Below, in pieces: positions 12,315-56,940 of a stretch of DNA of 64,000 nt; positions within the stretch are counted from its first letter, which is position 1, and each line of letters begins with the position of its first letter. The translations under genes and the position numbers were made by a program. Origin of the DNA: Actinacidiphila epipremni (GTDB taxonomy: Bacteria; Actinomycetota; Actinomycetes; Streptomycetales; Streptomycetaceae); NCBI RefSeq assembly GCF_012034175.1, contig NZ_JAATEJ010000004.1, positions 62,001 to 126,000 on the forward strand. Reading direction: 5' to 3'. A model generated the notes under the pieces. The model was not told where the DNA came from. It worked only from the letters and a program-made list of their open reading frames with translations, and ran no database searches.

Positions 12315-12337
12315 GGAACAGGAGACGGGAGCAGCGG

Positions 12338-15427: not shown

Positions 15428-15516
15428 AACGAACTGCCGGACTCTGGAATGTCAGTGCCGTCCAGTACGCTCCATACCGTTCTGACCTGCGCAATCGCAG
15501 AGAGGAGGCGATCGCC

Positions 15517-38442: not shown

Positions 38443-39102
38443 TCAGCGGCGGGTGCCGCAGCCCGGGCAGAAGGCGGAGCCGGCCGGAACCTCCGAGCCG
38501 CACGAGCCGCAGTGCTGCTGCTGGGCCAGGCGAGTGCCGCAGCCGGGGCAGAAGGGAGTGCCGCGGGTCTCGGTCTGGCAGTGCGGGCAGACAAGTTGCC
38601 GCGGGGCGGTGACGTCGAAGCTGCTGCCCGCCGCCTGCCCGACCTCGTACGCCCGCTGCGTCACGGTGTCGTTCAGGCCGCGTTGCTGCGCGGCGACCGC
38701 CTCGGCGGCGGTGTCCGGCGAGCAGGTCAGGCATAGGCCCTGGCCGGCGTTCCAGCAGCGGTTGCACACGTACTGCGTGCAGCGCGGGCAGCGGTTGAAG
38801 TGTCCCTGGGCGTTGTCGATCGCGCGCTTGAAGGCGGTGTCGCGCGACGACCCGTACGTCGCTCCTGCCAGCCCGTCCGCCGCGCTGGACACGCCGCTGC
38901 CAGTGCGGCCGAGCAGCCCGTAGGCGGCGTTGACGCCCTTGCCGACCCAGCTGGCCAGCCGGCCGCTGTTGTATGCCTCGAACGGGGAGCGCCAGGTGTC
39001 GGAGCACCGCCCGCAGGAGAACTCGAACTGAAACCCCGCGCCCGTGCCGTGCTCCTCGCACAGATCACGGTAGTTGTTGCTGAAATAGATTTCGGCAGTC
39101 AT
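38443..39102 (-). CDS. Zinc-ribbon protein
   Basis: 219 residues from ATG 39102 with GGGGAGG upstream. Six or more CxxC pairs are present: SCGRCSDTW near residue 30, RCPRC and CNRCW and CLTC near 110-130, CPHC near 168, and a C-terminal double zinc ribbon (FCPGCGTRLAQQQHCGSCG and again FCPGCGTRR). The central part is Gly/Ala/Ser-rich with the pattern of a membrane-interacting or oligomeric segment (NAAYGLLGRTGSG). Zinc ribbons of this type often act as adaptors in proteins near Hsp70 or vWA modules. It lies 106 bases downstream of the coiled-coil gene in the same orientation, so it may be the last gene of the operon. Confidence 0.75.
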   Translation of the reverse strand: MTAEIYFSNNYRDLCEEHGTGAGFQFEFSCGRCSDTWRSPFEAYNSGRLASWVGKGVNAAYGLLGRTGSGVSSAADGLAGATYGSSRDTAFKRAIDNAQGHFNRCPRCTQYVCNRCWNAGQGLCLTCSPDTAAEAVAAQQRGLNDTVTQRAYEVGQAAGSSFDVTAPRQLVCPHCQTETRGTPFCPGCGTRLAQQQHCGSCGSEVPAGSAFCPGCGTRR

Positions 39103-39208: not shown

Positions 39209-40396
39209 TCAGCTGCCCGGAATTGGCCCCGGGCCCTTGCCGGCCAGCAGCGCCAGCAGCTCTTCCCTGTCGCGGACATAGGCCCAGTCCGAGGCGCGGT
39301 TGTCGGGCGATTCGACCGCCACCTGGCACGTACTGTCCGGGTTCTTGCCGCGGAGCCATGTGACGAAAGCCGCGACCTCGTCGACCGGGCCCGCCATGCG
39401 GAGGACCGCTCCGCCGCCCTCGACCGGCGCCTGGGTGATGCGGATCTCGGTTCCCGGACCCCTCGCCACCACGAGGGAGCGGGACGAACCGGCACCCCTG
39501 CGGCTGAGCGCCTTGAACTCCGCCTGCACCTGGGGATGGTCCTTGTGCAGCGCCTCGGCGAGGAGGCCGAGATCCGGGGCGGCCGGTGCGGATACGCCCG
39601 TGTCGTTCAGGGAGAGGTTTATCAGGGCGCTGACGGGCTCCGCCGGGGCGGCCGTGGCGTGACCGGCGGGTGCGGCCGGCGCCGTCTCGGTGAAGACGCG
39701 CTGCTTCACGTAGACCTTGCCGTCCACGACATAGCCGGGCATCACGACGAAGGCGGCGGGCGCCCCGGCGTCGCACCGGCTGAACGGCCGCTGCCGGGCG
39801 CTGTCCAGACGCGCCCCCTCGGCCAGGTCGTAGTCCCAGGTGACGGCGTGTCCGGTGGCCGCGGCCCGGCTGCGGATACCGCTCGCGGCCACGCAGGCCG
39901 ACCGCAGGTCGTCGGGGCCGACGCCGGGGTGTCCGGCCTCGGCCATGTGCCGCGCCAGTTCGTCGGCGGCGGGCATCTGGTCGCCCGGTTGCAGCAGCTG
40001 CCGGGCCAGCCGGCCGATCACCGCCGCCTCCTCGCGCTCGCCGTCCGCCTGGACGAAGCGGGCGGCGATGTCCGTGAGGATCTGGTCGGCCAGGTTGTCG
40101 ATCTCAGCGCGGATCTCCTGATGGGCCAGGTAGGCGTCGGACACCAGCCGGTCCTGGGTCTTGGCCCGGCTCAGCGCGGTGAGCCGCCTTTCGTGCTCGT
40201 CGAGGCGCTGGAGGATCTGCGCCTGCGCCTCGCTGCTGCGCTGCTGGAGTTCGGCCACCTGCCGGTGCAGGCGGTTGATCTCGTTCTGCAGTTTGTCGAT
40301 CTTCCTGCTGTTCGGCGCGAGCAGTTCGTGGAACCCCTGCAGCACATGCCTCGCGGCCGTGGCATCCTCCTCGTGGCCTCCGCCCGGATAGGACAT
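39209..40396 (-). CDS. Coiled-coil protein of the vWA/Hsp70 operon
   Basis: 395 residues from ATG 40396; GAGGAGG lies 8 bases upstream. Residues 20-75 form a strong coiled coil (KIDKLQNEINRLHRQVAELQ) like a nucleotide-exchange factor (GrpE-type) helix, followed by a helical domain (AYLAHQEIRAEIDNLADQIL) and a C-terminal beta-rich domain after about 200 with no recognised family. A GrpE-like helper role for the adjacent Hsp70 is attractive: small coiled-coil exchange factors are encoded next to unconventional Hsp70s elsewhere. This remains inference. The gene follows the Hsp70-like gene by 19 bases. Confidence 0.65.
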   Translation of the reverse strand: MSYPGGGHEEDATAARHVLQGFHELLAPNSRKIDKLQNEINRLHRQVAELQQRSSEAQAQILQRLDEHERRLTALSRAKTQDRLVSDAYLAHQEIRAEIDNLADQILTDIAARFVQADGEREEAAVIGRLARQLLQPGDQMPAADELARHMAEAGHPGVGPDDLRSACVAASGIRSRAAATGHAVTWDYDLAEGARLDSARQRPFSRCDAGAPAAFVVMPGYVVDGKVYVKQRVFTETAPAAPAGHATAAPAEPVSALINLSLNDTGVSAPAAPDLGLLAEALHKDHPQVQAEFKALSRRGAGSSRSLVVARGPGTEIRITQAPVEGGGAVLRMAGPVDEVAAFVTWLRGKNPDSTCQVAVESPDNRASDWAYVRDREELLALLAGKGPGPIPGS

Positions 40397-40415
40397 CGTC
40401 ACACCCTCCTCGTTC

Positions 40416-42221
40416 TCAGTAGCCGCCGTCGAAGCGGAGTGTCGTGTCCAGCTCCTGGCCGGAGTGCTGGTTGACGGCGCGGACGCTGATCTCCGCGTCG
40501 CCGAAGCCGAGATGGACCAGGACGTTGCGCTGCGCCAGCGGCAGGGTCATCGCCGATCCGAGCTCGACGGTGAGGGTGCCGATGGCCTCGCACCCCGGCT
40601 CGTCGATGTAGCGGGGCTGTTCGGTGAGCGTGCGGAAGAACTGGAAGACGACCGATTTCATGTCCGCGTACAGCGGGCTGAAGGACTTGGGCTCCTCGAC
40701 GCTTCCGGTCTCCACGGTGTCGCCGTTGCGCACGAAGATCATGAACCGGTTGCTGCACTTGGCGTTGCCCTCCGGGTCGTAGATCCGCTTGGACACCGGG
40801 TCCCGGCCCGGCTCGAAGTCCCAGACGACCGCGCAGCCGTAGGTGTAGCGGCTGCGCCGGGAGATGATCAGCTCCGGGTCGTAGCCGAGCAGGACGGCGC
40901 CGCGCAGGACGGCGGCGGCCGGCTCGGTGGTGCGCATCATGACGACGCCGTCGCCGAAGTGCGCCAGCAGCCGCTGCTTGAGGTACGGCGAGCTGGACAG
41001 GCCCCCGACCAGCAGCAGCCGCTCGGGTCCGTCGGGTGCGCCGTCCCGGTTGCGCATCTCCTTCAGCTGCTGCTCGACCAGCTCGGCCAGCGACTTGAGC
41101 ACGGTGTCGAAGAGGACCCGCACCTCCTCGGGCGAGACCACGATCCGCGACTCCGACCCGCCGGGGAAGCCGCGCAGCCGGGCCCGGGTCTCGTCGCTGA
41201 TCAGCGGGTCGACCGCCCGCGGCAGCGGTACGTACACCGGCCGGTCGATGGTGAGCCGTCCGGCCGCGTCCATGGTCGCGGTGACCGCGATCTTCCCGCT
41301 CTCCCAGTGCTGCATGAGTTCCCGCAGCGCGTGCGGTCGCTCGCGGCGGATCCGCTCGACCACCTGCGGGCCGCCGAGCCGGTCGGTCAGGACCCGGTCG
41401 GCGAACGCCTGGTTGATGAACTCCGAGCCGATCTTGCCGCCGGACACCTTGCCGATCTCGATGAGCCGCCGGCGCTCGCCGGAGTCGGCCGGCGCGACCC
41501 GGTAGGCGGTGATGTCCACCGTGCCGCCACCGCAGTCGACCACCATGAACCGGCTGCCGCTGCGGGTGAGTTCCGCGGTGCCGTCCTCGTCGCGGGCGGC
41601 GATGACGCGGGCCAGGTGGATCTGGCAGTACAGCGCGGCGGCCTCCGGCTCGCGGGCCAGGATCAGCCGGTCCTGCTCGGCGGGCATACCCGCCTCGACG
41701 GCCGCGTCGCGCATCAGCTGCTTCTCGGCGTCGTCCCAGATCGCCGGGATCGTCAGGCACCAGCGGATCTGGCGTTCCAGGTATCCGCTGCCCTCGATCT
41801 CCTCCAGGGTGATCCGGTACATCCGGCGCAGGTAGGCGACGACGAGCGGATACGCCTTCGCCGGTGTGTCGATGCTCGCGGCCTGGTCGCCGAGCGAGGA
41901 CATGGTGAGCATCGCGCCGGGCCGCAGGGCCATCTTGAAGCCCTGGGCGTAGGTGTAGCCCTGCTGATCCCCCTCCTCGCACCGGCGCGCCCACTCCTCG
42001 CCGGCCTCGTGTCCCCACGCCGCGGGCTGCCCCGACGGGTCGAGCAGGACGGCGCTGAGGTCCTTGGGGTAGTGGCCGAGGGTGCCGGGCCACTGCTCCC
42101 GTATCTGCATGGTGAGCCGGGCGGGGCCCGGTCCCGACTCGTCGCCGACCTCAGTCCAGGCGTAGCCGGTCCCGTGGGTGCCGAAGTCGATCGCGGCCAC
42201 CACCGGGTAGGGACTGATCAT
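40416..42221 (-). CDS. Hsp70-like ATPase
   Basis: 601 residues, the start ATG overlapping the AAA gene stop. The actin/Hsp70 ATPase motifs are complete: phosphate-1 AIDFGTHGTGYAW (Asp 12), connect-1 region LTIPAIWDDAEKQLM with LAREPEAAALYC (equivalent of the EPxAAA motif), phosphate-2 VVDCGGGTVDITAY, and adenosine LLLVGGLSSSPYLKQRL followed by TTEPAAAVLRGAVLLG. The C-terminal 150 residues after the ATPase are beta-rich and unlike the DnaK peptide-binding domain, as in HSPA12-type or specialised bacterial Hsp70s. It probably remodels or delivers a partner in this operon. Confidence 0.88.
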   Translation of the reverse strand: MISPYPVVAAIDFGTHGTGYAWTEVGDESGPGPARLTMQIREQWPGTLGHYPKDLSAVLLDPSGQPAAWGHEAGEEWARRCEEGDQQGYTYAQGFKMALRPGAMLTMSSLGDQAASIDTPAKAYPLVVAYLRRMYRITLEEIEGSGYLERQIRWCLTIPAIWDDAEKQLMRDAAVEAGMPAEQDRLILAREPEAAALYCQIHLARVIAARDEDGTAELTRSGSRFMVVDCGGGTVDITAYRVAPADSGERRRLIEIGKVSGGKIGSEFINQAFADRVLTDRLGGPQVVERIRRERPHALRELMQHWESGKIAVTATMDAAGRLTIDRPVYVPLPRAVDPLISDETRARLRGFPGGSESRIVVSPEEVRVLFDTVLKSLAELVEQQLKEMRNRDGAPDGPERLLLVGGLSSSPYLKQRLLAHFGDGVVMMRTTEPAAAVLRGAVLLGYDPELIISRRSRYTYGCAVVWDFEPGRDPVSKRIYDPEGNAKCSNRFMIFVRNGDTVETGSVEEPKSFSPLYADMKSVVFQFFRTLTEQPRYIDEPGCEAIGTLTVELGSAMTLPLAQRNVLVHLGFGDAEISVRAVNQHSGQELDTTLRFDGGY

Positions 42222-44170
42222 CCGATCCTCCTGTCGGGCGTCCGGCTGACCACCGCGACCGCGCGGCCCTCCGGGAGTTCCACATGGAAGTGCCCGGTGC
42301 GGCTGCCGCTCTCCACCACGCGGTCGATCAGCGGGGCCCGCACCGAGCGGTCGAGGATGTTGCGGATCTCCCGGCCGCCGAGCGCGAGCGAACGGGGGTC
42401 CGCCATGGCCCGCCTGACCCCATCGGTGACCGACTCCCGCTCGACGTCCAAGGCGATGCCGGCCCGGGCCGCCGACGCGATGAGCTGGTCGAGGAACTTC
42501 GCGGTGATCGCGGGGATGTTCTCCGGTCGCAGCAGGTCGAAGGCGAGCACGCCGTTGCCGATCCGGCCGAGCAGCTCGGGACGGTTCAGCGTGGTGGCGA
42601 AGTGGTGCGAGACCTCGGTCTGGAACAGCTCGGACACCTCCTGGTACGAGGGCAGTTCACCCTGCTGGAGCCGCTCGTAGAGCGGGGCGGCCCCCAGGTT
42701 CGAGGTGAAGATGATCAGGCTCTGCGAGAAGTACGCGGTACGGCCGAGGCCGTCGGTCAGCCGGCCGTCCTCCAGGATCTGCAGGAACTTGTCGAAGACG
42801 GCCACATGGCCCTTCTCGATCTCGTCGAACAGCAGCACGCTGAAGGGCCGGCTCATCACCCGGTTGGTGAGCTCGCCGCCGCGCTCGTGCCCCACATAAC
42901 CCGGGGGCGCGCCGGTGAGCCGTTCGGCGGAGTGCTCCTCGGCGAAGGTGGACATGTCGAACCGGGTGAGGGCCGTCTCGTCGTCGAAGATGACATCCGA
43001 GAGCGCCCGGGCCAGTTCGGTCTTGCCGACCCCCGTGGGGCCGGCGAAGAAGAAGACGCCTTTGGGCCGGGCCTCGGCGCTGTGCGGGTCGGCCACGAAG
43101 TCGATGTTCATGGTGCCCGCGGCCAGCGCGCGGCTGACCGCCCGTACGGCGTCGGGCTGGCCGATCACCCGCCGGCGCAGGTCCTGCTCGGCCCGCGGGA
43201 TCCGGTCGACCAACCGCAGCCAGGGGTCGTCCTGCTGGCCGAAGAGCGCCCGCTTGACCAGCTCCTTGGGCTCGGACAGCGGCACCTTCTCCACATGGCT
43301 GGTCTGGCTCAGGCCGCGCAGCTCGGTGAGCGTCATGCCGTCCGTCAGGTTCGCCAGGGTCGGCAGCACGTCGTCCAGCGGCGCGGCGGGGTCGCGGTGG
43401 AAGCGGGTGACGATGCTGCGGAGATATCCCAGCCGCTCCTGATGGCTCGGGCGGTCCACCTCCACCGCCCGTACGAAGGGCTCGTCGCGGTGCAGCCACG
43501 GCGGGACGGACGCCAGGTCCGGGACGACCAGGATCAGCAGGTTGCCGACCTGGGCGCGCTCGGCCCGGCCGGACTCCAGCATCATCTTCTTGGTGAGCAG
43601 CAGCAGGTCGCGGTCCTGCCGGTCGTGGTGGTCGGGGTCGAGCAGCAGCAGCTCGGCGAAGTCCAGGACGAAGGCGACCGGCCGGGTCTGCTGGGCCAGC
43701 CCGCGGCGGATCGCGGCGAGCGCCTCGGCCGGCTGCCGGTAGCGCGGCGCCGCCTCCGCGCCCGCCCGCAGCGAGCCGCGCATCCGGCGCTGGAGCTCGG
43801 CCGCGCGGGCCCGCCGGCCGGCCGCGGCGGGGTCGCCGTCGGCCGCCTCCTCCTCGGGCGCGGCCGGCTGGTCCTCCTCGACGGGCGCCGGGCCGCCGAT
43901 GAGCTCGGCGAACCGCCGGTGGTCGTCGTCGGCGGCGAAGGTCAGGCCGTCCACCTGGTCGTACCGCCCGACCAGCTCGTACGACAGGGCGGTCAGGATC
44001 TCGCCGAGCGCCGTGCGCAGCGACACGAAGCCGCCCTGCCAGCGCACCATGTCGTGGACGTTGCCGTGCAGGATGACATGGCGCCCGCGGGCTATCTCGG
44101 CGACGAGGCCCTTGACCCACGGGGACACCCGCCGGGCCGGCCGCGGGTCCGCGGCGCGCGGGGTCGTCAT
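42218..44170 (-). CDS. Clp/Hsp100-type AAA+ ATPase
   Basis: 650 residues from ATG 44170, overlapping both neighbours by 4 bases. The N-terminal half contains a diverged AAA module (VAFVLDFAELLLLDP Walker B-like; VGNLLILVVPDL). The C-terminal module is a canonical ClpB/ClpA AAA2 domain: Walker A GPTGVGKT (377-384), pore region ERLTGAPPGYVGHERGG, Walker B VLLFDEIEKGH, sensor 1 LIIFTSNLG, arginine-rich NRPELLGRIGNG, and the sensor-2 region LALGGREIRNILDR. No ClpN double repeat and no M-domain are visible. It should unfold or thread protein substrates with the Hsp70, like ClpB-DnaK cooperation. Confidence 0.88.
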   Translation of the reverse strand: MTTPRAADPRPARRVSPWVKGLVAEIARGRHVILHGNVHDMVRWQGGFVSLRTALGEILTALSYELVGRYDQVDGLTFAADDDHRRFAELIGGPAPVEEDQPAAPEEEAADGDPAAAGRRARAAELQRRMRGSLRAGAEAAPRYRQPAEALAAIRRGLAQQTRPVAFVLDFAELLLLDPDHHDRQDRDLLLLTKKMMLESGRAERAQVGNLLILVVPDLASVPPWLHRDEPFVRAVEVDRPSHQERLGYLRSIVTRFHRDPAAPLDDVLPTLANLTDGMTLTELRGLSQTSHVEKVPLSEPKELVKRALFGQQDDPWLRLVDRIPRAEQDLRRRVIGQPDAVRAVSRALAAGTMNIDFVADPHSAEARPKGVFFFAGPTGVGKTELARALSDVIFDDETALTRFDMSTFAEEHSAERLTGAPPGYVGHERGGELTNRVMSRPFSVLLFDEIEKGHVAVFDKFLQILEDGRLTDGLGRTAYFSQSLIIFTSNLGAAPLYERLQQGELPSYQEVSELFQTEVSHHFATTLNRPELLGRIGNGVLAFDLLRPENIPAITAKFLDQLIASAARAGIALDVERESVTDGVRRAMADPRSLALGGREIRNILDRSVRAPLIDRVVESGSRTGHFHVELPEGRAVAVVSRTPDRRIG

Positions 44171-45396
44171 CTCTGCTCCCTGCGGCGCGTGCCGGGCAGC
44201 TGCTTGGCCTCCCGGGCCGGCGGCCGTTCCGGCTTGCCCTTCCAGTCCAGCTCGCCCGCCGCGACGCCCTCGGGCTCCAGCGCCTGCTGGAACTGCTCCA
44301 GCACCTCGGCCGTCAGGTCGCACGCGGCCACGGTGCCGTCCGCGGTCACCCTGGTGGTGAAGTCGTTGCCCTCGGCCTCGTAGACCAGTTGGGCTCCGCC
44401 CGCGCCGTCGGGGACGACGGCCAGCACGACCCGTTCGCCGCCGGCCCGGACGGCGGTGAGCATGCTGCCGGTGCCGACCTGCTGGACGCTGCCGGCTTCC
44501 AGCCGCAGGCCGGCCTGCGGCAGGGCGCGGCTGATCGCGTCCAGGATGATGCCGGTGCAGGCCAGTTCGTCCAGCCAGCCGTCGAACGCCGTGGCGAGCG
44601 CGGCCGTCGTGCTCGCCGCCAGCGCGGTCAGCCGGTCCATCGCGGGCACGTCCGCGGCGCGGCTCGCCGCCGCGAGGTCGCGCAGCAGCTCGGCGGCGGC
44701 GGCCCGGCCCGCCAGCTCGGCGGCGGACTCCTCGGCTTCGGTGAGCAGCGCGGTCAGCGCCTGCTCGGCCTGCGCGGCGGCCCGGCGGGCCCGGGCCAGC
44801 TCCTCGCGGCGCTCGCGGGCCCGGGCCAGGTGCGACTCCACGGCCGCCGCCAGCCGCCGGTGCGCCGCGGGGAAGCGCTCACCGGAGCCGACCTGCCGCT
44901 CGGCCTCGGCGAACGCCAGGTCGGTGTCCCGGGCCCCGGCGGGGTCCATCTCCGCCCGGTCGGGCACCGCGTCCGCCGAGGCCCGCAGGGCGGCCACCGC
45001 CGCGCCGCGCTGCTCACGGGCGAGGTGCGCGCTCACCGCGACGGCCAGCGCGGCCGAGTCGGCCTCGGCGGCCTCCACGCCGTTACGGGCCGCCGCGAGC
45101 CCGGCGTCGTCGGAGGCGGCGGCGATGGCGGCGGCCAGCGCCGACAGCGCGGCCGTCAGGTCGGTGTGCCGCCGGGCCAGTCCCGCGTCGGCGGCGCCGG
45201 CCCGCTGGGCGGCGGCGCGGGCCGCCAGCGCGGTGTGCCGGTCGCGCAACGCCGCCTGCTCGGCCCTGACCCGCCGTACGCGCTCCTTCTCCTGCTTGCG
45301 CAGGGCCGCCTCCTCGCGGCGGCGCCGGGCCTCCGCCAACTGCTGCTGCCTGCGCTGGTCGAGCTGCGCCCGGGAGTATTTGGGGCTACCTGACAT
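44167..45396 (-). CDS. Alanine-rich coiled-coil protein
   Basis: 409 residues from ATG 45396 (CGGAGGACCG upstream), overlapping the radical SAM gene by 11 bases and the AAA gene by 4. The first 65 residues are a basic coiled coil (RRQQQLAEARRRREEAALRK); further long alanine-rich coiled coils run to about residue 260. A small alpha/beta domain follows (TGSMLTAVRAGGERVVLAVV, then TTRVTADGTVAACDLT). No family is recognised. Position in the operon suggests a scaffold or adaptor for the ATPase. The first and second coiled-coil proteins of the operon are not similar to each other beyond composition. Confidence 0.65.
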   Translation of the reverse strand: MSGSPKYSRAQLDQRRQQQLAEARRRREEAALRKQEKERVRRVRAEQAALRDRHTALAARAAAQRAGAADAGLARRHTDLTAALSALAAAIAAASDDAGLAAARNGVEAAEADSAALAVAVSAHLAREQRGAAVAALRASADAVPDRAEMDPAGARDTDLAFAEAERQVGSGERFPAAHRRLAAAVESHLARARERREELARARRAAAQAEQALTALLTEAEESAAELAGRAAAAELLRDLAAASRAADVPAMDRLTALAASTTAALATAFDGWLDELACTGIILDAISRALPQAGLRLEAGSVQQVGTGSMLTAVRAGGERVVLAVVPDGAGGAQLVYEAEGNDFTTRVTADGTVAACDLTAEVLEQFQQALEPEGVAAGELDWKGKPERPPAREAKQLPGTRRREQR

Positions 45397-46234
45397 CGGT
45401 CCTCCGAGAGATGGGTAGGTCTATGCCCTCCTGCCGCAGGGCGCGTTCGAAGCTCGCGCGGAAACCGGGGACAGGGGGGACACCGGACCAGTGCACGGTG
45501 CCGTCCTGGACGTCGAACTGGAGCCCCGCGCTGCGGTCCTGCGCCGGCGGGGTGTGGCGGTCGGTCAGGTAGTGCACGCGCTGGTTGTCCGAGCCGCGCC
45601 ACAGCAGGGCGCCGTGGCGGTCGGGCAGATACGGGCCGTCGACGAGGATGTCGAGCCGGTCCAGCAGGTCGCGCCGCGCCGGGTCGCCGTGGCGCAACGC
45701 CTCCAGGGTGAAGCCCGAGTAGGACATCACCGACCAGTCCCGGCTCGCGCGCAGCCGGTCCACCAGCGCCGCGAGGGCGGCGGGCTGGGCCATCGGCTCA
45801 CCGCCGGAGAAGGTGACGCCGGTGACCTCGGCGGGCAGCGCGTTCAGCCGGGCGGCCAGGGCGGCGACCGGCCAGGTCTCGCCGCCCTCGAAGGGCAGCC
45901 CTTCCGGTGCGAGGCATCCGGTGCAACGCAGGGGGCAGCCTTGCACCCAGACCACTGCGCGTACTCCCGGGCCGAGCACGGTGGTGGACTCCGCGATGCG
46001 GCTGAGGGTGAGGGCGGGGGCGGCGGGGGCGGCTCCGCCGTTGCGGTGGTGTCCGGCTCCGTCGCGGTGGTTGCGCGCCGGTCGGGGGGCGCTTCCCGCT
46101 TCTCCGCCGTCATGTCCCGCTGCCTGGCGGTCACTTCCCGCTTTGCCGCCGTCGTACCCTGCCTCTTCGCCGTCGGGTCCCGCTTCTTGGCGGGCACCTT
46201 CCGCTTCGTCGCGGTCATCTCCCGTACGGGTCAT
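45386..46234 (-). CDS. Radical SAM protein (NrdG-like activase)
   Basis: 282 residues from ATG 46234. Residues 1-72 are a low-complexity Asp/Gly/Ala/Glu head of degenerate repeats. The radical SAM core follows, with the cluster motif CPLRCTGC (Cys 100, 104, 107) and the GGE motif in VTGVTFSGGEPMAQP, then the DILVDGPYLPD segment that is typical of anaerobic ribonucleotide reductase activases. Length and motif spacing match the single-cluster NrdG/PflA-like group, which generates a glycyl radical or modifies another protein. No glycyl-radical enzyme is nearby, so the target is probably a protein in this operon. Overlaps with both neighbours indicate coupling. Confidence 0.85.
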   Translation of the reverse strand: MTRTGDDRDEAEGARQEAGPDGEEAGYDGGKAGSDRQAAGHDGGEAGSAPRPARNHRDGAGHHRNGGAAPAAPALTLSRIAESTTVLGPGVRAVVWVQGCPLRCTGCLAPEGLPFEGGETWPVAALAARLNALPAEVTGVTFSGGEPMAQPAALAALVDRLRASRDWSVMSYSGFTLEALRHGDPARRDLLDRLDILVDGPYLPDRHGALLWRGSDNQRVHYLTDRHTPPAQDRSAGLQFDVQDGTVHWSGVPPVPGFRASFERALRQEGIDLPISRRTDVR

Positions 46235-47318
46235 GCGCGCTGCCTCCTCTGGCGTCGGCGCCGCTGAAGGGGTCGCGTCCGGTGCGGCCGGCCAGCTCGC
46301 ACCACGGGCAGGCCGCCGCCTCCCGGGCGAAGACGTGCAACTCCCCGGTCGGGCACAGCCGGACGGTGTTCTGGACCCGGGTCAGCTCGGCCACCCAGTC
46401 CTGCGGCAGCGGCCGGGCGTCCGGGTCGTCGTAGCCGGCGGCGAAGCAGCGCTCCAGCAGCCGGCGCAACGGCCCGGCCAGCACCAGATCCGCGTCGGCG
46501 GCGTGCGCCGGCTGCCGCAGCGTGGAGCCGAGCAGGACGCTGCGCCGGTTCTCCACGTTCGCCTGGACGTCGAAGGGCGGCTCGGCGTCCGGCGGTACGC
46601 CCGCGAAGGGGTGCGCCCCGAGCCGTAGGATCTCCGCCAGCAGCACGGCGAGCGCCCAGCGGTCCGCGGACGGGGCCCGCAGCTTGCGCGAGGCCGGGTC
46701 GGCCAGGTGCTCGGGCGGGGTGTACTCGGCGCGGGAGAACGGGCTCGGCAGCGACAGCCCGGTGGCCTGGTCGTGGATCTGCCAGCCGTCCACGTCGACG
46801 AACCCGACGGCCGCGCCCGGGGTGGCGAACAGGTTCTCCGGGGAGAGGTCGGACACCACGTGCCCGGCGCGGTGGATCTCGGTCATGGTGCGGGCCAGGT
46901 CGAGAGCCAGCTCCAGGTACCAGCGCCAGGTCGCCCGGCGCGGCGCCAGGGTCCGGCCGCCGCGCAGCGCCTGGTGGAAGGGGCCGAAGTCCGGCGCGGT
47001 CAGGGCGGGCTGCACGTAGCCGAGCAGGCGGCCCCCGCCGACCGCGCGTACCCGGGCGAGCGGCCAGGCGACCCGGACGATGCCGTCGCGTACGGTCATC
47101 CGCGCCGGCCGGGAGGCGAGCATCGCCTCAAGCTTGTCGGCGAAGTTCTCCGCCTCGGGGTTGCGGATGAGCTTGACCACCAGCCGCGGGTGCCCCCGTA
47201 CCAGCCGCACGGCGCCCTGCGAGCCCGGCGGCCCCACGCGTGCGCCGAGCGTGACGGTACGCCGCCGGCCGTCCGCGGACTCCAGCACGACATCGAGATC
47301 CGGCGTGGCAGTGGTCAT
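46215..47318 (-). CDS. Ser/Thr protein-kinase-like protein
   Basis: 367 residues from ATG 47318 (ATGA overlap with the phosphatase gene). Kinase subdomains are recognisable: RLVVKLIRNPEA (ATP lysine), a hydrophobic hinge LLGYVQPALTAP, the catalytic loop HVVSDLSPENLF (Asp and Asn kept, HRD changed to VSD), and VGFVDVDGWQ as the metal-binding equivalent of DFG. A cysteine-containing tail (LCPTGELHVF then ACPWCELAGR) suggests a small zinc ribbon at the C-terminus. This matches the kinase of TerY-P triads, which occurs next to a vWA protein and a PP2C phosphatase as here. Its substrate may be the vWA protein or a chaperone of the operon. Confidence 0.8.
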   Translation of the reverse strand: MTTATPDLDVVLESADGRRRTVTLGARVGPPGSQGAVRLVRGHPRLVVKLIRNPEAENFADKLEAMLASRPARMTVRDGIVRVAWPLARVRAVGGGRLLGYVQPALTAPDFGPFHQALRGGRTLAPRRATWRWYLELALDLARTMTEIHRAGHVVSDLSPENLFATPGAAVGFVDVDGWQIHDQATGLSLPSPFSRAEYTPPEHLADPASRKLRAPSADRWALAVLLAEILRLGAHPFAGVPPDAEPPFDVQANVENRRSVLLGSTLRQPAHAADADLVLAGPLRRLLERCFAAGYDDPDARPLPQDWVAELTRVQNTVRLCPTGELHVFAREAAACPWCELAGRTGRDPFSGADARGGSAHDPYGR

Positions 47319-48259
47319 GGGCGCGCCACCGCGACCAGCAGGGTCTTGTCGTCGCCGGTCAGCGCGCACAGCCGCTCGGCGGCCAGGAAGCGGGCGAGGA
47401 AGGTGTCGCCGGCCCCAGCCTTGTCCGCGTGGCCGAACAGCGGCGCGAAGAAGGCGTCGTACGGTGCGGTGGCCCGCGCGCGCTGCGACATCAGGCCGAC
47501 CTGCCGCAGGCCGTCGGTGCTCACCGCGATCCCGGTGAGGTCGGGCAGCCGCGCGACCAGGCGGCGCGACCGGTCGGCGGCGTGCGGGGAGAGGAGGAAG
47601 ACGGTGCGGCCCGGTTCTTCGGGTACGAACGGGGCGTCATTGCCGGGGTCGGTGGCGTCGGTGGGGTCGGTGGGGTCGGTTGTGGCCTCGGTGGTGGTGT
47701 CGCCGGCCGTGGGGTCGGCGGGCTCGTCCGGGGCGGCGGGGTCGTCGTCGGGCGGCAGGAGCAGGTCGAACTGCGCGTCGCCGCAGCGGGTCACGACGAA
47801 GCCGTCGCCGACGGCCGCCGCCACCAGCCAGGGCGGGTCGGCCACCACCACGGTCAGCGTCGTGCCCCACTGCGCGGGCCCGTAGTCCTGCGGATCGCCC
47901 AGCGCGGTGGAGCACGCCTGCGCGACGGCGGCGAACTTCCCCACGACCGCGCGCACGACCTCGTCCAGGTAGGCCGACCAGCCGGCCGTCCCCTCGGCGG
48001 CTCCCCATGAGCCCCGGTCCGCCGGCAGCCGGTCGTGCGCCTCGTCGGCGGCCAGGGTGGCGGCCAGCGCCGAGGCGGCGCCGGCCAGATGCGCCCGGCC
48101 GCCGCCGTCGGCGGCCACCAGGATGAGGGGCTCGCCGCCGGACCGCCGGACGCGGAATCCGTCCTGGCAGTCGGTGGCGGTGCGGGCGTGGTCGGTACCG
48201 AGCACCGAGGCGGCGGCGGTCACCCAGGGCGCGGCCCCGGTGCCCGGCGCGGCGTTCAC
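47315..48259 (-). CDS. PP2C-like protein phosphatase
   Basis: 314 residues from GTG 48259, overlapping the vWA gene as GTGA. PPM/PP2C metal-binding signatures are in order: LVAADGGGRAHLAG (DGxG), a helical region, VAAAVGDGFVVTRCG (GDG), IAVSTDGLRQVG (TDG) and LTGDDKTLLVAVA (DD). A Pro/Asp/Thr-rich acidic insertion (TTEATTDPTDPTDATDP) interrupts the domain near residue 200. The expected activity is dephosphorylation of the kinase's targets. The gene order vWA, PP2C, kinase is the TerY-P arrangement. Confidence 0.85.
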   Translation of the reverse strand: MNAAPGTGAAPWVTAAASVLGTDHARTATDCQDGFRVRRSGGEPLILVAADGGGRAHLAGAASALAATLAADEAHDRLPADRGSWGAAEGTAGWSAYLDEVVRAVVGKFAAVAQACSTALGDPQDYGPAQWGTTLTVVVADPPWLVAAAVGDGFVVTRCGDAQFDLLLPPDDDPAAPDEPADPTAGDTTTEATTDPTDPTDATDPGNDAPFVPEEPGRTVFLLSPHAADRSRRLVARLPDLTGIAVSTDGLRQVGLMSQRARATAPYDAFFAPLFGHADKAGAGDTFLARFLAAERLCALTGDDKTLLVAVARP

Positions 48260-49053
48260 TCCGCTCCGCTCTCGCCGGAGGGCTGCCCGTCGGTTCCCCA
48301 GCGCGCCTGTTCCCACACGGCGGCATAGGGGTCGTCCGCGGAGGTCGCCACCAGCACGAGGTTCAGCAGCTCGTTGAAGTCCAGCGCGGACAGCGGGAAG
48401 TAGCCCTTCTCCGGGGCGAGTTCCCGTAGGACGTGCTCGTCGGCCCCCGGGGCGCCGAAGGCGAGGAAGAGCAGCCGGCGCTGCTTGCGGCGGGTCCGGA
48501 TGAGGTCGGCGGTCGAACGCCAGGCGCCGGCCGGCAGGTTGTCGTCGTTGGGGCCGCCGTCGCTGAAGAGGATCATGCGCACCTGGCCGGTCTGCAGGCC
48601 CTGCCCCGCCAGGTACTGGACCCGCTGGTCGCCCAGGTTCAGGGCGAACTCCAGGGCGGCGACCATGGGGGTGGTCCCGGTGGCCGTCAGCGGGGCGATC
48701 TCCAGCTCGCCCGCCGGTACGAACGCGCCGCCGTCGGCGTGCAGCCGGTCCGGCGGGCAGCGCAGGTCGCCGGTCACCGTGCGGACCCCGTCGCCGCCGA
48801 ATGTCACGACGGCGAATTCGACCCCTCTGAGCGGCCCTTTTCCCTGGCTGCGGACTTCGGGAAGCCATGACTCGATACTGCTGTTGAGATCATCGATAGG
48901 GCGCTTGCCGTTTTCCGCGTACCCCATCGAGCCGGATACGTCGATAACGATGACGACCACCCGGCGCTGGTACGTACCTTCGTTCAGGCCGATGTCGTCG
49001 GTCGCGTCCGCCTTCTCGTCGAATAAGGACGCCAATTCATCGAATACACTCAC
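48256..49053 (-). CDS. von Willebrand factor A domain protein (TerY-like)
   Basis: 265 residues from GTG 49053 preceded by AGAGGCGACG; the GTG overlaps the stop of an upstream frame as GTGA. The MIDAS metal site is DVSGSMG (Asp 38, Ser 40, Ser 42), with the threonine (ATGTTPM) and aspartate (LFSDGGPNDD) positions also present. GKRPIDDLNSSIESWLPEV and VEFAVVTFGGDGV fit TerY-type cytosolic vWA proteins. These bind partners through the metal site and act with PP2C and kinase partners in Ter-type stress systems. No signal peptide. The C-terminal 20 residues are disordered. Confidence 0.85.
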   Translation of the reverse strand: MSVFDELASLFDEKADATDDIGLNEGTYQRRVVVIVIDVSGSMGYAENGKRPIDDLNSSIESWLPEVRSQGKGPLRGVEFAVVTFGGDGVRTVTGDLRCPPDRLHADGGAFVPAGELEIAPLTATGTTPMVAALEFALNLGDQRVQYLAGQGLQTGQVRMILFSDGGPNDDNLPAGAWRSTADLIRTRRKQRRLLFLAFGAPGADEHVLRELAPEKGYFPLSALDFNELLNLVLVATSADDPYAAVWEQARWGTDGQPSGESGAE

Positions 49054-49502
49054 CCGTCGCCTCTTCCCCCAGGCCGCTCTTCTTCCCCGCCGTCCCCATG
49101 CGGAACAGCGCCGACCGGCCATGCGTCCCATCCGCAGCCGCCGGCCGCCCGTACGACGGCGACGGTGCCGCCGCGTCCCGGCGGCTCCCCCTCGACCCCG
49201 CGCCAACAGGCCGTTTCCACAAGGCCGTTGACCTTCACCAGCCCGCGCGGACGCAGCAGCGCGTGCACCGTGCCGGTCCCCGCGGGCGCCTCCTCCCGCG
49301 GCGCGGCGGCCCCCTCGGCCCGATCCGGAAGACCCGGCTGCCCGGAAGGGCCCGGCACAAGCGGAACGGACTCGGACCCGTCATCCGGCACACCGGCGGC
49401 GCGCCGGCGCCAGAAGAATAAGCGCGCGCGACACCTGCGACCGAAGCGACGGATGAGACCGCGAAAACCGCTGTGCCGAATCCGATCATGTTCACGTGAC
49501 AT
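49050..49502 (-). CDS. Possible NfeD-like OB-fold protein at the head of the operon
   Basis: About 150 residues if translation begins at ATG 49502. The C-terminal part reads ALLRPRGLVKVNGLVETACW and then GRGGTVAVVRAAG, the pattern of the NfeD C-terminal OB-fold, and its codons have strong third-position GC. The frame ends in GTGA with the vWA start, supporting coupling. The N-terminal part is less convincing: it is arginine-rich and includes a TTA codon at residue 28. The alternative frame from ATG 49489 encodes a plausible membrane helix (FGTAVFAVSSVASVAGVA), as expected before an NfeD domain. The true protein may therefore need a frameshift, or two small ORFs may overlap. Confidence 0.45.
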   Translation of the reverse strand: MSREHDRIRHSGFRGLIRRFGRRCRARLFFWRRRAAGVPDDGSESVPLVPGPSGQPGLPDRAEGAAAPREEAPAGTGTVHALLRPRGLVKVNGLVETACWRGVEGEPPGRGGTVAVVRAAGGCGWDAWPVGAVPHGDGGEEERPGGRGDG

Positions 49503-49665
49503 GCGGAAGCACCACGACAACCCCCTAGTTCCCCCCGGGCCCCCAGCCTCATTCGGCTTTCCCTGGGATTGACGATAGCGCCCCCGTGCGACCCGGGGCG
49601 CGGATTCGCGAGAAGACATTTTCCGGAATTTGCCCGGAGGCTGGGGTCCTGGTGGGGGTGGGGGG

Positions 49666-52970: not shown

Positions 52971-53558
52971 TCAGTGGAGGGCGTGGGGGTGGGTGGTCAT
53001 GGTGTGGTTGAGGAGGGCGATGAGGACGTTTTTGGTGGATTCCAGGGAGCGGGCGTCGCACATCAGGATGGGGACGTCGGGGGCGAGGTCGAGGGCGAAG
53101 CGGACGTCGGAGGGGGCGTAGTCCCAGGCGCCGTCGAAGCGGTTGACGGCGACGACGAAGGATGTGCCGCGGTGCTCGAAGTAGTCGACGGCGGGGAAGG
53201 AGTCCTCCAGGCGGCGGGTGTCGGCCAGGACGACGGCGCCGATCGCGCCGAGGGCCAGCTCGTCCCACATGAACCAGAAGCGGTTCTGGCCGGGGGTGCC
53301 GAAGAGGTAGAGGACGAGGTCGGCGCTGAGGGTGACGCGGCCGAAGTCCATGGCGACGGTCGTGGTGGTCTTGGCCGCGACGCCGGTGAGGTCGTCCACG
53401 CCCTCGCTGGTCGCCGTGATCACCTCCTCCGTCTGGAGCGGGGCGATCTCGCTGACGGTGCCGACCATCGTGGTCTTGCCGACGCCGAAGCCGCCGGCGA
53501 TGAGGATCTTGACCCCCGTCGGCAGGGCGCCGGGACCGTCAGAGCTTGCGAATTCCAT
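52971..53558 (-). CDS. cvnD: CvnD, Ras-like small GTPase of a conservon
   Basis: 195 residues from ATG 53558, overlapping cvnC by 20 bases. G-domain motifs: P-loop GGFGVGKTTMVG, G2 region VTSE..GVDD (IAPLQTEEVITATSEGVDD), G3 DFGRVTLSADL with LFGTPGQNRFWFMWDEL, and G4 VAVNRFDG in place of NKxD. CvnD proteins are Rab/Ras-like GTPases that work with CvnA histidine kinase-like, CvnB Roadblock and CvnC DUF742 proteins at the membrane, analogous to eukaryotic G-protein-coupled signalling. No cvnE (cytochrome P450) follows; the next gene is convergent. Confidence 0.92.
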   Translation of the reverse strand: MEFASSDGPGALPTGVKILIAGGFGVGKTTMVGTVSEIAPLQTEEVITATSEGVDDLTGVAAKTTTTVAMDFGRVTLSADLVLYLFGTPGQNRFWFMWDELALGAIGAVVLADTRRLEDSFPAVDYFEHRGTSFVVAVNRFDGAWDYAPSDVRFALDLAPDVPILMCDARSLESTKNVLIALLNHTMTTHPHALH

Positions 53559-53913
53559 CGAGTACCGCCTGAAGGAGGTGGATTTCCGGGGCCTCCGCGA
53601 GCGCGATCGGTGCGCGCGTGTGGACGGCCCCCATGTCGAGTAGGTCACCGAGGAGGACCTTGGTCACGGTCACGGGCAGGTCCAGCCGGGCCGAGATCTC
53701 GGCGACGGACAGCGGGGCGCCCGTGCACATCCGCAGGATCACCAGGTGCTCGGGTTCGAGCCCGCGGGGCACGCCGTCGGTGGGCACGGCGATGATCAGC
53801 GTGATCAGGTTGAACTCGTCGCGGCTGGGCCGGGTCCGCCCGCCCGTCCTCGCGAACGGGCGCACGATGGGCCCCGCGTCCACGTCCCACCACGACTCCT
53901 CCGGTCCGGGCAC
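53539..53913 (-). CDS. cvnC: CvnC, DUF742 protein of a conservon
   Basis: 124 residues from GTG 53913 with a G-rich site immediately upstream (a longer in-frame reading into cvnB exists but is unlikely). DUF742 features: SWWDVDAGPIVRPFARTGGR at the start, then LITLIIAV, LEPEHLVILRMCTGAPLSVA and the winged-helix-like ISARLDLPVTVTKVLLGDL. The domain is probably a winged-helix effector partner of the Roadblock protein. Gene order A-B-C-D is preserved. Confidence 0.9.
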   Translation of the reverse strand: MPGPEESWWDVDAGPIVRPFARTGGRTRPSRDEFNLITLIIAVPTDGVPRGLEPEHLVILRMCTGAPLSVAEISARLDLPVTVTKVLLGDLLDMGAVHTRAPIALAEAPEIHLLQAVLDGIRKL

Positions 53914-53923
53914 GGCCCCCGCC

Positions 53924-54361
53924 TCAGAACGGCGGCGGCGGGACCGCCGCCGGGACCGCTGCCGCCTGGCGGGGCGCCGCGGCGAGGAAGTCACCGACCC
54001 GCCTGACGATGAGGTTCATCTCGTACGCCACCAGGCCCACGTCGATGTCGGCCTCGCCGAGCAGCGCCAGGCACGCGCCCTGTCCCGCGCCGGTCACGAA
54101 CAGGAAGCAGCTCTCCAGCTCGACGATGGTCTGCCGCACCGGCCCGCCGCCGAAGCGCCGGCCGACACCGCCGGCCAGGCTCTGGAATCCCGAGGCGACC
54201 GCCGACAGGTGCTCGGCGTCCTCCCGGCCGAGATCGCGCGAGTGGGCGATCACCAGCCCGTCGGCCGACAGCACCAGGACGTGCCTGGTCCTGGGGACGC
54301 GTCGGACGAGGTCGTCCAGCATCCAGTCGAGGTCGGTCACCGGCTTCGGCGTCTGCGTCAT
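53924..54361 (-). CDS. cvnB: CvnB, Roadblock/LC7 domain protein
   Basis: 145 residues from ATG 54361, overlapping the cvnA stop as ATGA. The Roadblock fold is recognisable: LDWMLDDLVRRVPRTRHVLV, LSADGLVIAHSRDL, SAVASGFQSLAGGVG and CFLFVTGAGQGACLALL. In conservons this protein activates or tethers the GTPase CvnD. The C-terminal 20 residues are Ala/Pro-rich. Confidence 0.92.
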   Translation of the reverse strand: MTQTPKPVTDLDWMLDDLVRRVPRTRHVLVLSADGLVIAHSRDLGREDAEHLSAVASGFQSLAGGVGRRFGGGPVRQTIVELESCFLFVTGAGQGACLALLGEADIDVGLVAYEMNLIVRRVGDFLAAAPRQAAAVPAAVPPPPF

Positions 54362-56940
54362 CGTGGGTCCCACTGTCCCTCTCCGGTCGGCCTGGTGCCG
54401 GCCGTGTCCTGGTGTCCGCCGTCGTGCTCGTGCTTGTGTTCGTGTTCGTGGCTGTGCTGGTGGCCGTGCACGTGCTCGCGTTCGGCGTCGGTACGGCCGC
54501 GGTACGACTGGCGCTGGTACGCCGACATCAGCCGGCGGGCCTCCTCGGGCGACCGCTCCGCGGGTGCCGCCTCGGGTGCCGGGGCCGCGGGGTGCAGCAA
54601 CTGCGGCTGCATGCTGGCCTGTCGGACCCGCCGCGGCAGCTGCCTGGGCCCGCGCTGTGCGCCCTCGCGTACGGGCGGCTCCTGGCGGGGAGTTGCCGCC
54701 CGGGGGCGCAGCGGCGTGGGCTCCGGGCCTACCGGGGGCGGCACTTGGCGTACGGGCTCGCGGCGTACTGGCTCGTGGCGTACGGGCTCCTGGAACGTGG
54801 GCTCCTGGCCTGGCGGCTGCTCGCGCATGTGCTCCCCGGCCACCTCGATGACATGCGGCGGTGCCAGCACGATCGCCGACGTGCCCCCGTACGGCGACGG
54901 CCGCAGGGTCACCGTGATCTTGTGGCGGGCCGCCAGCCGCGCCACGACGAAGACGCCGAGCCGGGTGTCCTGCGTGAAGCCCATGACGTTGAACTCCGGT
55001 GCCGCGGCGAGCAGCCGGTTGGCCTCGTCGCGGGCCTCCGGCGTCATGCCGATGCCGCGGTCCTCGATCTCGATGCCGAGGCCCTTGGCCACCACCTCCG
55101 CCCGTACCTCCACGCTGGTGTGCGGCGGGGCGAAATGCGTCGCGTTCTCCAGCAGTTCGGACAGCAGGTGCATGATGTCGCCCGCCACCGGGCCGGCGAT
55201 CCGCACATCGGGGATGCCGGCGAGCTTGACCCGCGAGTAGTCCTCGGTCTGCGAGGCCGCGCCGCGCAGGATCTCGCTCAGCTGCACCGACTGGCGCCAG
55301 CGCCGGGCCGGCATCGCGCCGCCGAGGATGGACAGGTTCTCCGAGTTGCGCCGCATCCGGGTGGCCAGGTGGTCCACCCGGAAGAGGTCGGCGAGCAGGT
55401 CCGGGTTCTCGCTCTCGCGCTCCAGCGAGTCCAGCAGCACGAGTTGCCGGTGCACGAGGCCCTGGCTGCGCCCGGCGAGGTTGAGGAACACCCGGCTGAT
55501 GCCCTCGCGCGTCTCGGCCTGCTCGATCGCCGCCCGCACCGCGATGCGCTGGGCCGTGGCGAACGCCCCCGCCACCTGGCCGATCTCGTCCGGGCCCTGG
55601 CCGACGTCGGGCACGGCCTCGTCCGGGTCGACCTTGTCGCCCCGCTCCAACCGGGCCATGAGCTGCGGGAGTTGCTCCTCCGCCAGCCGCAGCGTCGCTC
55701 CGCGCAGATGCTGGAGCCGGCGGATCAGGGCGCGGGAGATCAGCACCGAGATCACCACGGCCGCCGCGATGGCCAGCAGGGCGCCCACGCTGGTCGCGAT
55801 CACCGAGGTCATCAGCGAGTCCACCCGGCCGTTGGCGTAGCCGACGGCGAACGACACCTGGTCCAGGGTGAGTTGCTGGAGCTCACCGCTCACGGTGAGC
55901 ATCGAGGTCTGCCAGCTCGGGAAATCCGTCGGGATGCGGCCGGACTTCACGGCCGACTGCTCCGCGGCCACCATCGCCGCCCACTGCGGGCTCGCGGTGA
56001 TCGCCTTGTAGCGCGCGGCCTGCGCCCCGCGCAGGGCCGGCGTCACGACCCTCCACTGCTCCTGCTGCGCACCGACGAGCTGGTCGAACTGCCGCTGCTG
56101 CGCGGCCGACAACATCCCCTTGGGCGAGGTCAGTCCCGCGGAGAGCACCGCGTCCTCCCGGGACAGGCCCTCCAGCGCGCGGAAGAGGTCCGCGGCCAGG
56201 GTGCCCTCGACGAGCGCGCTGGAGTCGTTGGTCAGCCGGGCCTCGGCGGCGAAGTACGTCATGCCGGTGCTCAGGGCGCCGGTGTAGAAGTCGTACGCGG
56301 CGCCGTAGTCGACCTTGCGCGCGTCGATCTGCTGCCGGAAGCCCGGCAGTGCCGACAGGCCCGTGCTGATCTGCGCGAAGATCTGCTGCAGGGCGGGCGG
56401 GTTGCTCGTGACGACCGGGCCGGCGGCCTCCCGCATCGCTGCCAACTTGAGGTCGGTGTCGGCTCGTTGCCGCATCAGCGGACCGGGGTCCGTACCGGGG
56501 TGGGCCAGTTGGACCATCGACAGCCGGCGCTCCTCCTGGAGCGCCACCATCGCCGTCTCGCTCTTGACCCCGACCCGCTGCACGTCCCGCACGGTCTGCC
56601 GCAGGTCCAGGGCCTGGCGGAACCCCTTGGCGGTGTAGACGCCCCACAGCGCGGTCAGCGACAGGCTCGGGATCAGCACGAGCACGAGGATCCGGGTCCT
56701 GATGGACCGCGGGCCCCAAAGACCCCGCGAGGAGCGGGAGTCGCGCCGCGGGGCGGTGGCCCGCCGGCGGCCCCGTCCGCCGCGCCTGCCGGTGGTGGGG
56801 CGGCGGGTCTCGGCCCCCGGCGACGGGGGTTGCGGGGGCGGACCCGAGGCACGGTCTGCCTCGGCGGCCTGGGGCGATCGGGACGGCACGTCGTGGAATC
56901 CCCTGCTCGGCGGAACCGGAACACCCGTCCCCTGACGCAT
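54358..56940 (-). CDS. cvnA: CvnA, histidine-kinase-like sensor with His-rich tail
   Basis: 860 residues from ATG 56940. A basic Pro-rich head precedes a first membrane helix (LVLVLIPSLSLTALWGVY, about 85-105). An extracytoplasmic nitrate/nitrite-sensing-like helical domain follows, then a second membrane helix (VIATSVGALLAIAAAVVISV, about 380-400) and a HAMP-like segment. The ATPase domain has LLSELLENATHFAPP (N-box) and IEDRGIGMTPEA (G1). The C-terminus is Pro/Arg-rich with three EPVR repeats and ends in a striking histidine-rich run (HVHGHQHSHEHEHKHEH). CvnA senses signals and regulates the Roadblock/GTPase module; the His run could bind metal. Confidence 0.9.
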   Translation of the reverse strand: MRQGTGVPVPPSRGFHDVPSRSPQAAEADRASGPPPQPPSPGAETRRPTTGRRGGRGRRRATAPRRDSRSSRGLWGPRSIRTRILVLVLIPSLSLTALWGVYTAKGFRQALDLRQTVRDVQRVGVKSETAMVALQEERRLSMVQLAHPGTDPGPLMRQRADTDLKLAAMREAAGPVVTSNPPALQQIFAQISTGLSALPGFRQQIDARKVDYGAAYDFYTGALSTGMTYFAAEARLTNDSSALVEGTLAADLFRALEGLSREDAVLSAGLTSPKGMLSAAQQRQFDQLVGAQQEQWRVVTPALRGAQAARYKAITASPQWAAMVAAEQSAVKSGRIPTDFPSWQTSMLTVSGELQQLTLDQVSFAVGYANGRVDSLMTSVIATSVGALLAIAAAVVISVLISRALIRRLQHLRGATLRLAEEQLPQLMARLERGDKVDPDEAVPDVGQGPDEIGQVAGAFATAQRIAVRAAIEQAETREGISRVFLNLAGRSQGLVHRQLVLLDSLERESENPDLLADLFRVDHLATRMRRNSENLSILGGAMPARRWRQSVQLSEILRGAASQTEDYSRVKLAGIPDVRIAGPVAGDIMHLLSELLENATHFAPPHTSVEVRAEVVAKGLGIEIEDRGIGMTPEARDEANRLLAAAPEFNVMGFTQDTRLGVFVVARLAARHKITVTLRPSPYGGTSAIVLAPPHVIEVAGEHMREQPPGQEPTFQEPVRHEPVRREPVRQVPPPVGPEPTPLRPRAATPRQEPPVREGAQRGPRQLPRRVRQASMQPQLLHPAAPAPEAAPAERSPEEARRLMSAYQRQSYRGRTDAEREHVHGHQHSHEHEHKHEHDGGHQDTAGTRPTGEGQWDPR

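Follow-up and report, generated by a model that had tools for sequence, protein, structure and literature searches.

What does an operon do that places a kinase and a phosphatase beside a radical SAM enzyme, a Clp-type AAA+ ATPase and an Hsp70, and do these genes belong to one system? The question is raised by a 64,000-nucleotide stretch of DNA from Actinacidiphila epipremni (Streptomycetaceae; NZ_JAATEJ010000004.1, positions 62,001 to 126,000), here called the window, which forms part of contig 36 of an 8.2-Mb genome. By open reading frame (ORF) coordinates, a nine-gene operon occupies the minus strand between about 49.6 and 39.2 kb, its genes overlapping or nearly abutting. Their order is NfeD-like, vWA, PP2C, kinase, radical SAM (rSAM), CC1, AAA+, Hsp70 and CC2, where CC1 and CC2 are coiled-coil proteins. 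Because most of this gene set recurs as a unit in other bacteria, the operon is a real, apparently undescribed variant of known bacterial stress- and immunity-type machines. The nine genes, and one just beyond them, are as follows (NBD, nucleotide-binding domain; SBD, substrate-binding domain).

49050..49619, minus strand: small NfeD-like protein with an OB-fold-like C-terminus (labelled by eye; true start uncertain)
48256..49053, minus strand: TerY-type vWA protein, MIDAS motif DVSGS (Pfam VWA_2, 6.7e-6)
47315..48259, minus strand: PP2C-type phosphatase (Pfam PP2C_2, 5.5e-23), kept in all nine loci with the six-gene core described below
46215..47318, minus strand: Ser/Thr kinase with a C-terminal CPWC (zinc-ribbon-like) tail (Pkinase, 1e-4; divergent)
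45386..46234, minus strand: NrdG/PflA-like rSAM protein, CxxxCxxC and GGE motifs (Fer4_12/radical SAM, 3.5e-31)
44167..45396, minus strand: CC1, MSGSPKY-type coiled coil with a C-terminal alpha/beta domain and Cys359 (alignments, structure model)
42218..44170, minus strand: Clp-type AAA+ ATPase, GYVG pore loop (AAA_2, 2.7e-47)
40416..42221, minus strand: Hsp70 with NBD and SBD-beta, lidless (alignment, model, Foldseek)
39209..40402, minus strand: CC2, coiled-coil partner of Hsp70 (Hsp70-CC2 pairs in standalone loci; Streptomyces griseoruber locus L072)
38443..39102, minus strand: double zinc-ribbon protein, probably outside the system (DZR, 1.6e-7)

The composition of the operon, its co-conservation, its modularity and the integrity of its catalytic motifs are direct observations. 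Overlaps of 4 nt join NfeD-like to vWA (49050-49053), vWA to PP2C, PP2C to kinase, CC1 to AAA+ and AAA+ to Hsp70; the kinase and rSAM genes overlap by 20 nt, rSAM and CC1 by 11 nt, and Hsp70 and CC2 are separated by 13 nt. Third-position GC is 0.85-0.96 in most of the genes. By inspection, the motifs are intact in vWA (MIDAS DVSGS), PP2C (ADGGG, GDD), the kinase (K, SDLSPEN, DVDG), rSAM (CPLRCTGC, SGGEP), AAA+ (GPTGVGKT, LLFDEIEK, GYVG) and Hsp70 (DFGTHGTG, DCGGGTVD, GGLSSS). The NfeD-like gene has no Pfam match, and searches of Pfam and NCBIfam gave no convincing family match for CC1 or CC2. Coordinates, junctions and Pfam/NCBIfam matches agree with the gene set that an initial annotation had read on this strand, and the gene that it called possibly NfeD-like is a real ORF, conserved in S. 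griseoruber. The zinc-ribbon gene that it had offered as a doubtful last member was dropped, as it sits 106 nt beyond the operon end and was not found in the S. griseoruber locus.

The arrangement of the genes is not a product of chance, since S. griseoruber L072, which has the closest operon, holds the same genes in collinear order. An ORF starting GTVHALLGPRGLVTVDGLVE occupies the place of the NfeD-like gene there. Protein identities between the two operons are 35-78% (69% for vWA), and dN/dS ratios (NG86) are 0.26-0.58 for seven genes; CC2 is the fastest-evolving gene, with a ratio of 0.79. The operon is therefore of sufficient age to have diverged, and it is under constraint. Judged by these ratios, the enzymes, CC1 and Hsp70 are under purifying selection.

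Related loci were collected by a genus search with the rSAM protein, followed by phylum and family searches with its profile. The core vWA-PP2C-kinase-rSAM-CC1-AAA is found, in the order of the window, in seven of 346 Streptomycetaceae genomes (L067, L182, L220-L224); together with the window and L072, these are nine loci in which the six genes strictly co-occur and are collinear. Behind the AAA gene, the seven sister loci encode an actin-fold ATPase of another kind, then a DO-GTPase2 protein and a GAP1 protein with GAP1-N2, GAP1-M and GAP1-C domains. This ATPase has no Pfam match and no tblastn similarity to the window Hsp70, and hidden Markov models built from L067 found neither DO-GTPase nor GAP1 among all ORFs of the window. 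The initial annotation had made its claim of a novel integrated system depend on co-occurrence of the genes, which is borne out for the six-gene core and, across phyla, for CC1-AAA-rSAM, and fails for the full nine-gene set, which is rare (the window and S. griseoruber; one of the 346 sampled genomes when searched by Hsp70). The operon is nevertheless not isolated, because the core recurs in nine loci and CC1-AAA-rSAM crosses phyla.

In a maximum likelihood tree (PMSF) of the AAA proteins, the window and L072 together are the sister of the seven GAP1-type loci (support 100/99). A Geminocystis plasmid locus, which contains rSAM, three DO-GTPase-like genes, CC1 and AAA, lies just outside this group (98/91). 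Since both the sister loci and the outlying Geminocystis locus carry GTPases, these may be ancestral and may have been swapped for Hsp70-CC2 in the branch of the window. GTPase-centric conflict systems have been described in which a third theme combines kinase-ZnR, PP2C and vWA (Kaur et al., 2020; PMC7159879); the part of that text devoted to the third theme leaves Clp AAA+, radical SAM and the coiled coil CC1 unmentioned. The window shares the triad with these systems, and in the sister loci the same core of six genes is accompanied by DO-GTPase and GAP1-N2, whereas the window lacks DO-GTPase and GAP1 and has Hsp70-CC2 instead. By its gene content, the window operon is a variant of the GAP1-N2/DO-GTPase type, in which the GTPase half is replaced by a separately mobile Hsp70-CC2 cassette.

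The triad itself is TerY-P-like (Anantharaman et al., 2012, through PMC11090510) and consists of vWA, PP2C and a kinase with a Cys-rich tail. The three genes are adjacent in the window in this order, with the MIDAS-bearing vWA first, and the order is shared with L039-L042. The window kinase aligns by tblastn to kinases of TerY-P triads over 89-94% of its length, with E values down to 8e-24. Its CPWC tail appears conserved in relatives by eye, with no Pfam ribbon match. The operon carries the sequence features of a TerY-P triad, with a putative zinc ribbon seen by eye only, and the TerY-P-like label first given to it stands on domain matches, gene order and the tblastn alignments. The window triad differs from the known one in sharing its operon with rSAM, CC1, a Clp-type AAA+ and Hsp70-CC2. 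On a Rhizobium plasmid (L041:4005-9228), a TerY-P triad follows immediately upon the radical SAM system His-Xaa-Ser (HxsABC), whose rSAM family is unrelated.

Does the Hsp70-CC2 pair belong to the operon? The Hsp70 is found in 12 of the 346 sampled family genomes and on eight Streptomyces plasmids. Its loci outside the window (11 sampled genomes and the plasmids) hold no other operon gene, and most have a CC2-like gene downstream. Two-gene cassettes of Hsp70 and a coiled-coil protein (linear plasmids L019-L023; also L024-L034) are carried on large linear Streptomyces plasmids and on chromosomes, without J-protein- or GrpE-like neighbours. This standalone occurrence, seen on plasmids and in 11 of the 12 Hsp70-bearing genomes of the sample, would be expected if a TerY-P/CC1-AAA-rSAM operon and an Hsp70-CC2 cassette were unrelated neighbours joined by happenstance. 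We consider such a joining unlikely, since in the window the first 4 nt of the Hsp70 gene lie inside the end of the AAA gene, S. griseoruber retains the AAA-Hsp70 join at about 70% identity, and the sister branch has an actin-fold ATPase in the same slot.

The initial annotation saw a paired Hsp70-Hsp100 disaggregation machine in the AAA+ and Hsp70 genes. A motif scan of the AAA protein finds a single Walker A motif, a GYVG translocation loop and about 320 N-terminal residues without a P-loop; the ClpP-docking [ILV]G[FL] loop was not found anywhere in the sequence. The protein resembles ClpB across the D2 part alone and is without the M-domain, the DnaK docking site of ClpB. The N-terminal region looks, by eye only, like the C-terminal half of a classical AAA domain; its assignment as a ClpB D1 domain was rejected, as hhalign was not significant. 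Given the single Walker A motif, the GYVG loop, and the missing ClpP tripeptide and M-domain, the protein is probably a threading remodeller, neither a protease subunit nor a copy of ClpB.

The Hsp70 scores just under the Pfam cut-off (1.8e-4; 20.3 versus 20.6 bits). Its AlphaFold2 model, made from a 12-row alignment, has a pLDDT of 82.9, and its best PDB match by Foldseek is full-length DnaK (E 7e-23, more than 600 aligned columns). The actin-fold NBD with its phosphate motifs is present and SBD-beta is modelled as strands in residues 460-594; the model finishes in strands, and C-terminal helices, and with them the alpha-helical lid, are absent. Neither DnaJ nor GrpE is encoded in the operon, and the ordinary DnaK of the genome is encoded elsewhere. 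The operon is like the ClpB-DnaK bichaperone in having a Clp-type D2 AAA domain and an Hsp70, but it differs in the missing M-domain, the single active AAA domain, the lidless Hsp70 and the missing J-protein and GrpE. A canonical disaggregase was rejected on these grounds. A regulated Hsp70-Hsp100 disaggregase serving housekeeping or stress protein quality control could still draw on a Clp-type ring and an Hsp70 with a substrate-binding domain. The same missing parts make this improbable, as do the presence of the operon in few genomes, the genome's own DnaK, and the seven sister loci in which another ATPase stands in for Hsp70. What holds of the earlier proposal is that one conserved operon brings together Hsp70, Clp-type AAA+, radical SAM and coiled coils.

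The most constant partner of the AAA protein is rSAM. Full-length AAA relatives, N-terminal region included, are found in Actinomycetota, Cyanobacteriota, Pseudomonadota, Bacillota, Verrucomicrobiota, Myxococcota and others, and the CC1-AAA-rSAM linkage is seen in the first four of these phyla. Of 24 members of the AAA subfamily, 18 have an NrdG-like rSAM gene no more than 10 kb away, and none of 71 ClpA/B/C-like controls from the same scan does. Among loci found without the use of rSAM, it is nearby in 7 of 13, versus 0 of 71 controls (p ~4e-7). A CC1-type coiled coil is usually encoded directly ahead of the AAA gene. The partners of this module vary. One set consists of an FHA-type Ser/Thr kinase, an FHA-zinc-ribbon protein and PP2C (L080, L076, L079, L226-L239, L184, L185), so that kinase and PP2C partners turn up again in this branch; a second, on proteobacterial plasmids, consists of SF1 helicase and PIN proteins (L036, L038, L046), and a third of DO-GTPases. 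Kinases of the FHA branch carry repeated T-x-R-D at the N-terminus (L080:5798-9130, L184:6138-8447, L079:6267-8867), which look like phosphothreonine-x-x-Asp sites that the neighbouring FHA protein would bind. CC1 relatives of this branch (L183:12266-13552, L185:13817-15160, L077:4993-6309) have a hydrophobic, possibly membrane-spanning start that the window CC1 lacks.

What does rSAM act on? Its CxxxCxxC motif, CPLRCTGC, is invariant in 11 relatives. It shares the fold family and this motif with the NrdG/PflA activases, but scores below the family cut-off (NCBIfam TIGR02491, 99.4 versus 126.1 bits) and has no glycyl-radical partner nearby. The operon encodes no glycyl-radical enzyme; the single one of the genome is on another contig, with its own rSAM-like gene directly behind it (L240; contig 6, 3399-4198), in a presumably aerobic actinomycete. 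An activase of class III ribonucleotide reductase or another glycyl-radical enzyme was rejected as the principal reading on account of the sub-threshold score and this separate pair; for the same reasons, the substrate of rSAM probably lies within the operon system.

A candidate substrate is CC1. Its C-terminal cysteine is kept in 28 of 28 loci at a median pairwise identity of 17%, in one alignment column in 25 and shifted by one residue in 3, and a downstream glycine is kept too. In the window this is Cys359, one of two cysteines; a fold search with CC1 gave no significant match. Cys359 was favoured at first as the obvious rSAM target and was weakened by a related branch (L068, L225, L228, L230, L232, L233) that has a GAP1-like gene, an actin-fold ATPase, vWA, rSAM, a coiled coil starting MSGRK and a tandem CbxX/SpoVK-type AAA. 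The readable coiled coils of this branch are linked to rSAM and lack the cysteine, which argues that the cysteine tracks the Clp-type AAA and not rSAM. These findings also bear on radical enzyme maturation as the purpose of the operon, in which rSAM would install a glycyl radical or a peptide modification and AAA and Hsp70 would be maturation chaperones. The intact CxxxCxxC, the closest solved relative (pyruvate formate-lyase activase, 5.6e-19), the constancy of rSAM beside AAA and the invariant CC1 cysteine would all fit. The score under the NrdG cut-off, the location of the genome's only glycyl-radical enzyme and the Cys-less coiled coils of the CbxX-type branch make this reading rather doubtful.

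Our preferred reading, to which we give an even chance, is a phosphorylation-gated, ATP-driven protein-remodelling system built from three modules; we infer how its signalling is directed, which of its proteins touch, what rSAM targets and what biological role it has. The vWA/PP2C/kinase triad would be a two-way phospho-switch, in which the phosphatase opposes the kinase. CC1-AAA-rSAM would be the working core. Here CC1 may act as a scaffold or adaptor that delivers clients, or itself, to the Clp-type unfoldase; AAA, with a single active ring, would thread without degradation, and rSAM would mature or modify one component. Hsp70-CC2 would add a second ATPase module, open to exchange, which keeps hold of the client or assembles it and for which CC2 serves as cofactor; the sister branch fills this slot with its different actin-fold ATPase, DO-GTPase and GAP1. 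Upon stress or invasion, the system would be expected to assemble or take apart a protein complex in a regulated manner. More tentatively, CC1-AAA-rSAM may be the undescribed cross-phylum core of kinase/phosphatase-gated systems with plug-in "second engines" (Hsp70-CC2; actin-fold ATPase with DO-GTPase/GAP1; FHA-type kinases; SF1 helicase with PIN), in which rSAM modifies a core component and so arms the system.

Several observations weigh against the three-module system. Hsp70-CC2 seldom accompanies the six-gene core (2 loci) and is commonly found apart from it (11 further genomes of the sample, 8 plasmids), so that it may act independently of the core. No recognisable effector (nuclease, pore or toxin) was found in the operon. 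PADLOC returned nothing specific there, a negative that is uninformative because authentic TerY-P triads, run as controls, likewise score nothing specific.

The operon could instead be an anti-invader conflict system, a threshold immune machine like the MoxR-vWA systems and the DO-GTPase systems, with Hsp70-CC2 as its variable sensor or effector half. We regard this as possible, though short of probable. The sister operons carry GAP1-N2 and DO-GTPase, which have been proposed as conflict families (PMC7159879), relatives are carried on plasmids, CC2 evolves fastest, and a complete Type I restriction-modification set, accompanied by GmrSD_N and AAA_21 genes, is encoded 21 kb away. The TerY-P triad has been reported to be active against T7-like phages (Gao et al., 2020, as reported in PMC7699616; also cited in PMC11090510), and because of this report defence is a reasonable hypothesis, not a result. 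The missing nuclease or toxin-like effector counts against it, the restriction cluster may be unconnected with the operon, and stress or developmental roles fit the phyletic spread too. In phage records the AAA protein had no full-length match and the Hsp70 none at all, and the full architecture was not found in phage homologues. The restriction cluster itself (window 8000-18194) is low in GC (58-63%) and has the look of a defence island, with two HsdM, HsdS and HsdR followed by GmrSD_N and AAA_21. On the other side of the operon, four minus-strand genes (window 52971-56940) are conservon-like by eye (sensor kinase, roadblock, DUF742-like, GTPase).

Type II and III-A CoCoNuTs also combine TerY-P with an Hsp70-like protein and coiled coils (PMC11090510), but the window operon is without McrB/McrC, HEPN and helicase genes; Pfam and NCBIfam searches found no McrB-like GTPase or McrC homologue among its proteins. 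As far as its sequences tell, the operon lacks the features that define GTPase-centric systems, CoCoNuTs, ClpB-DnaK disaggregases and NrdG. No description of its composition was found in the open full-text literature (subscription papers and figures lie outside this search), in keeping with the initial annotation, which knew of no described system of exactly this make-up.

One recurrent rSAM-containing module thus ties together TerY-P triads, GTPase-centric conflict systems and Clp/Hsp70 chaperones, which have so far been described apart. It raises the questions of whether phosphorylation gates a Clp-type remodelling ring and what rSAM modifies. It also suggests that an Hsp70-coiled-coil pair circulating on Streptomyces plasmids can replace the GTPase half of a conflict-type system.

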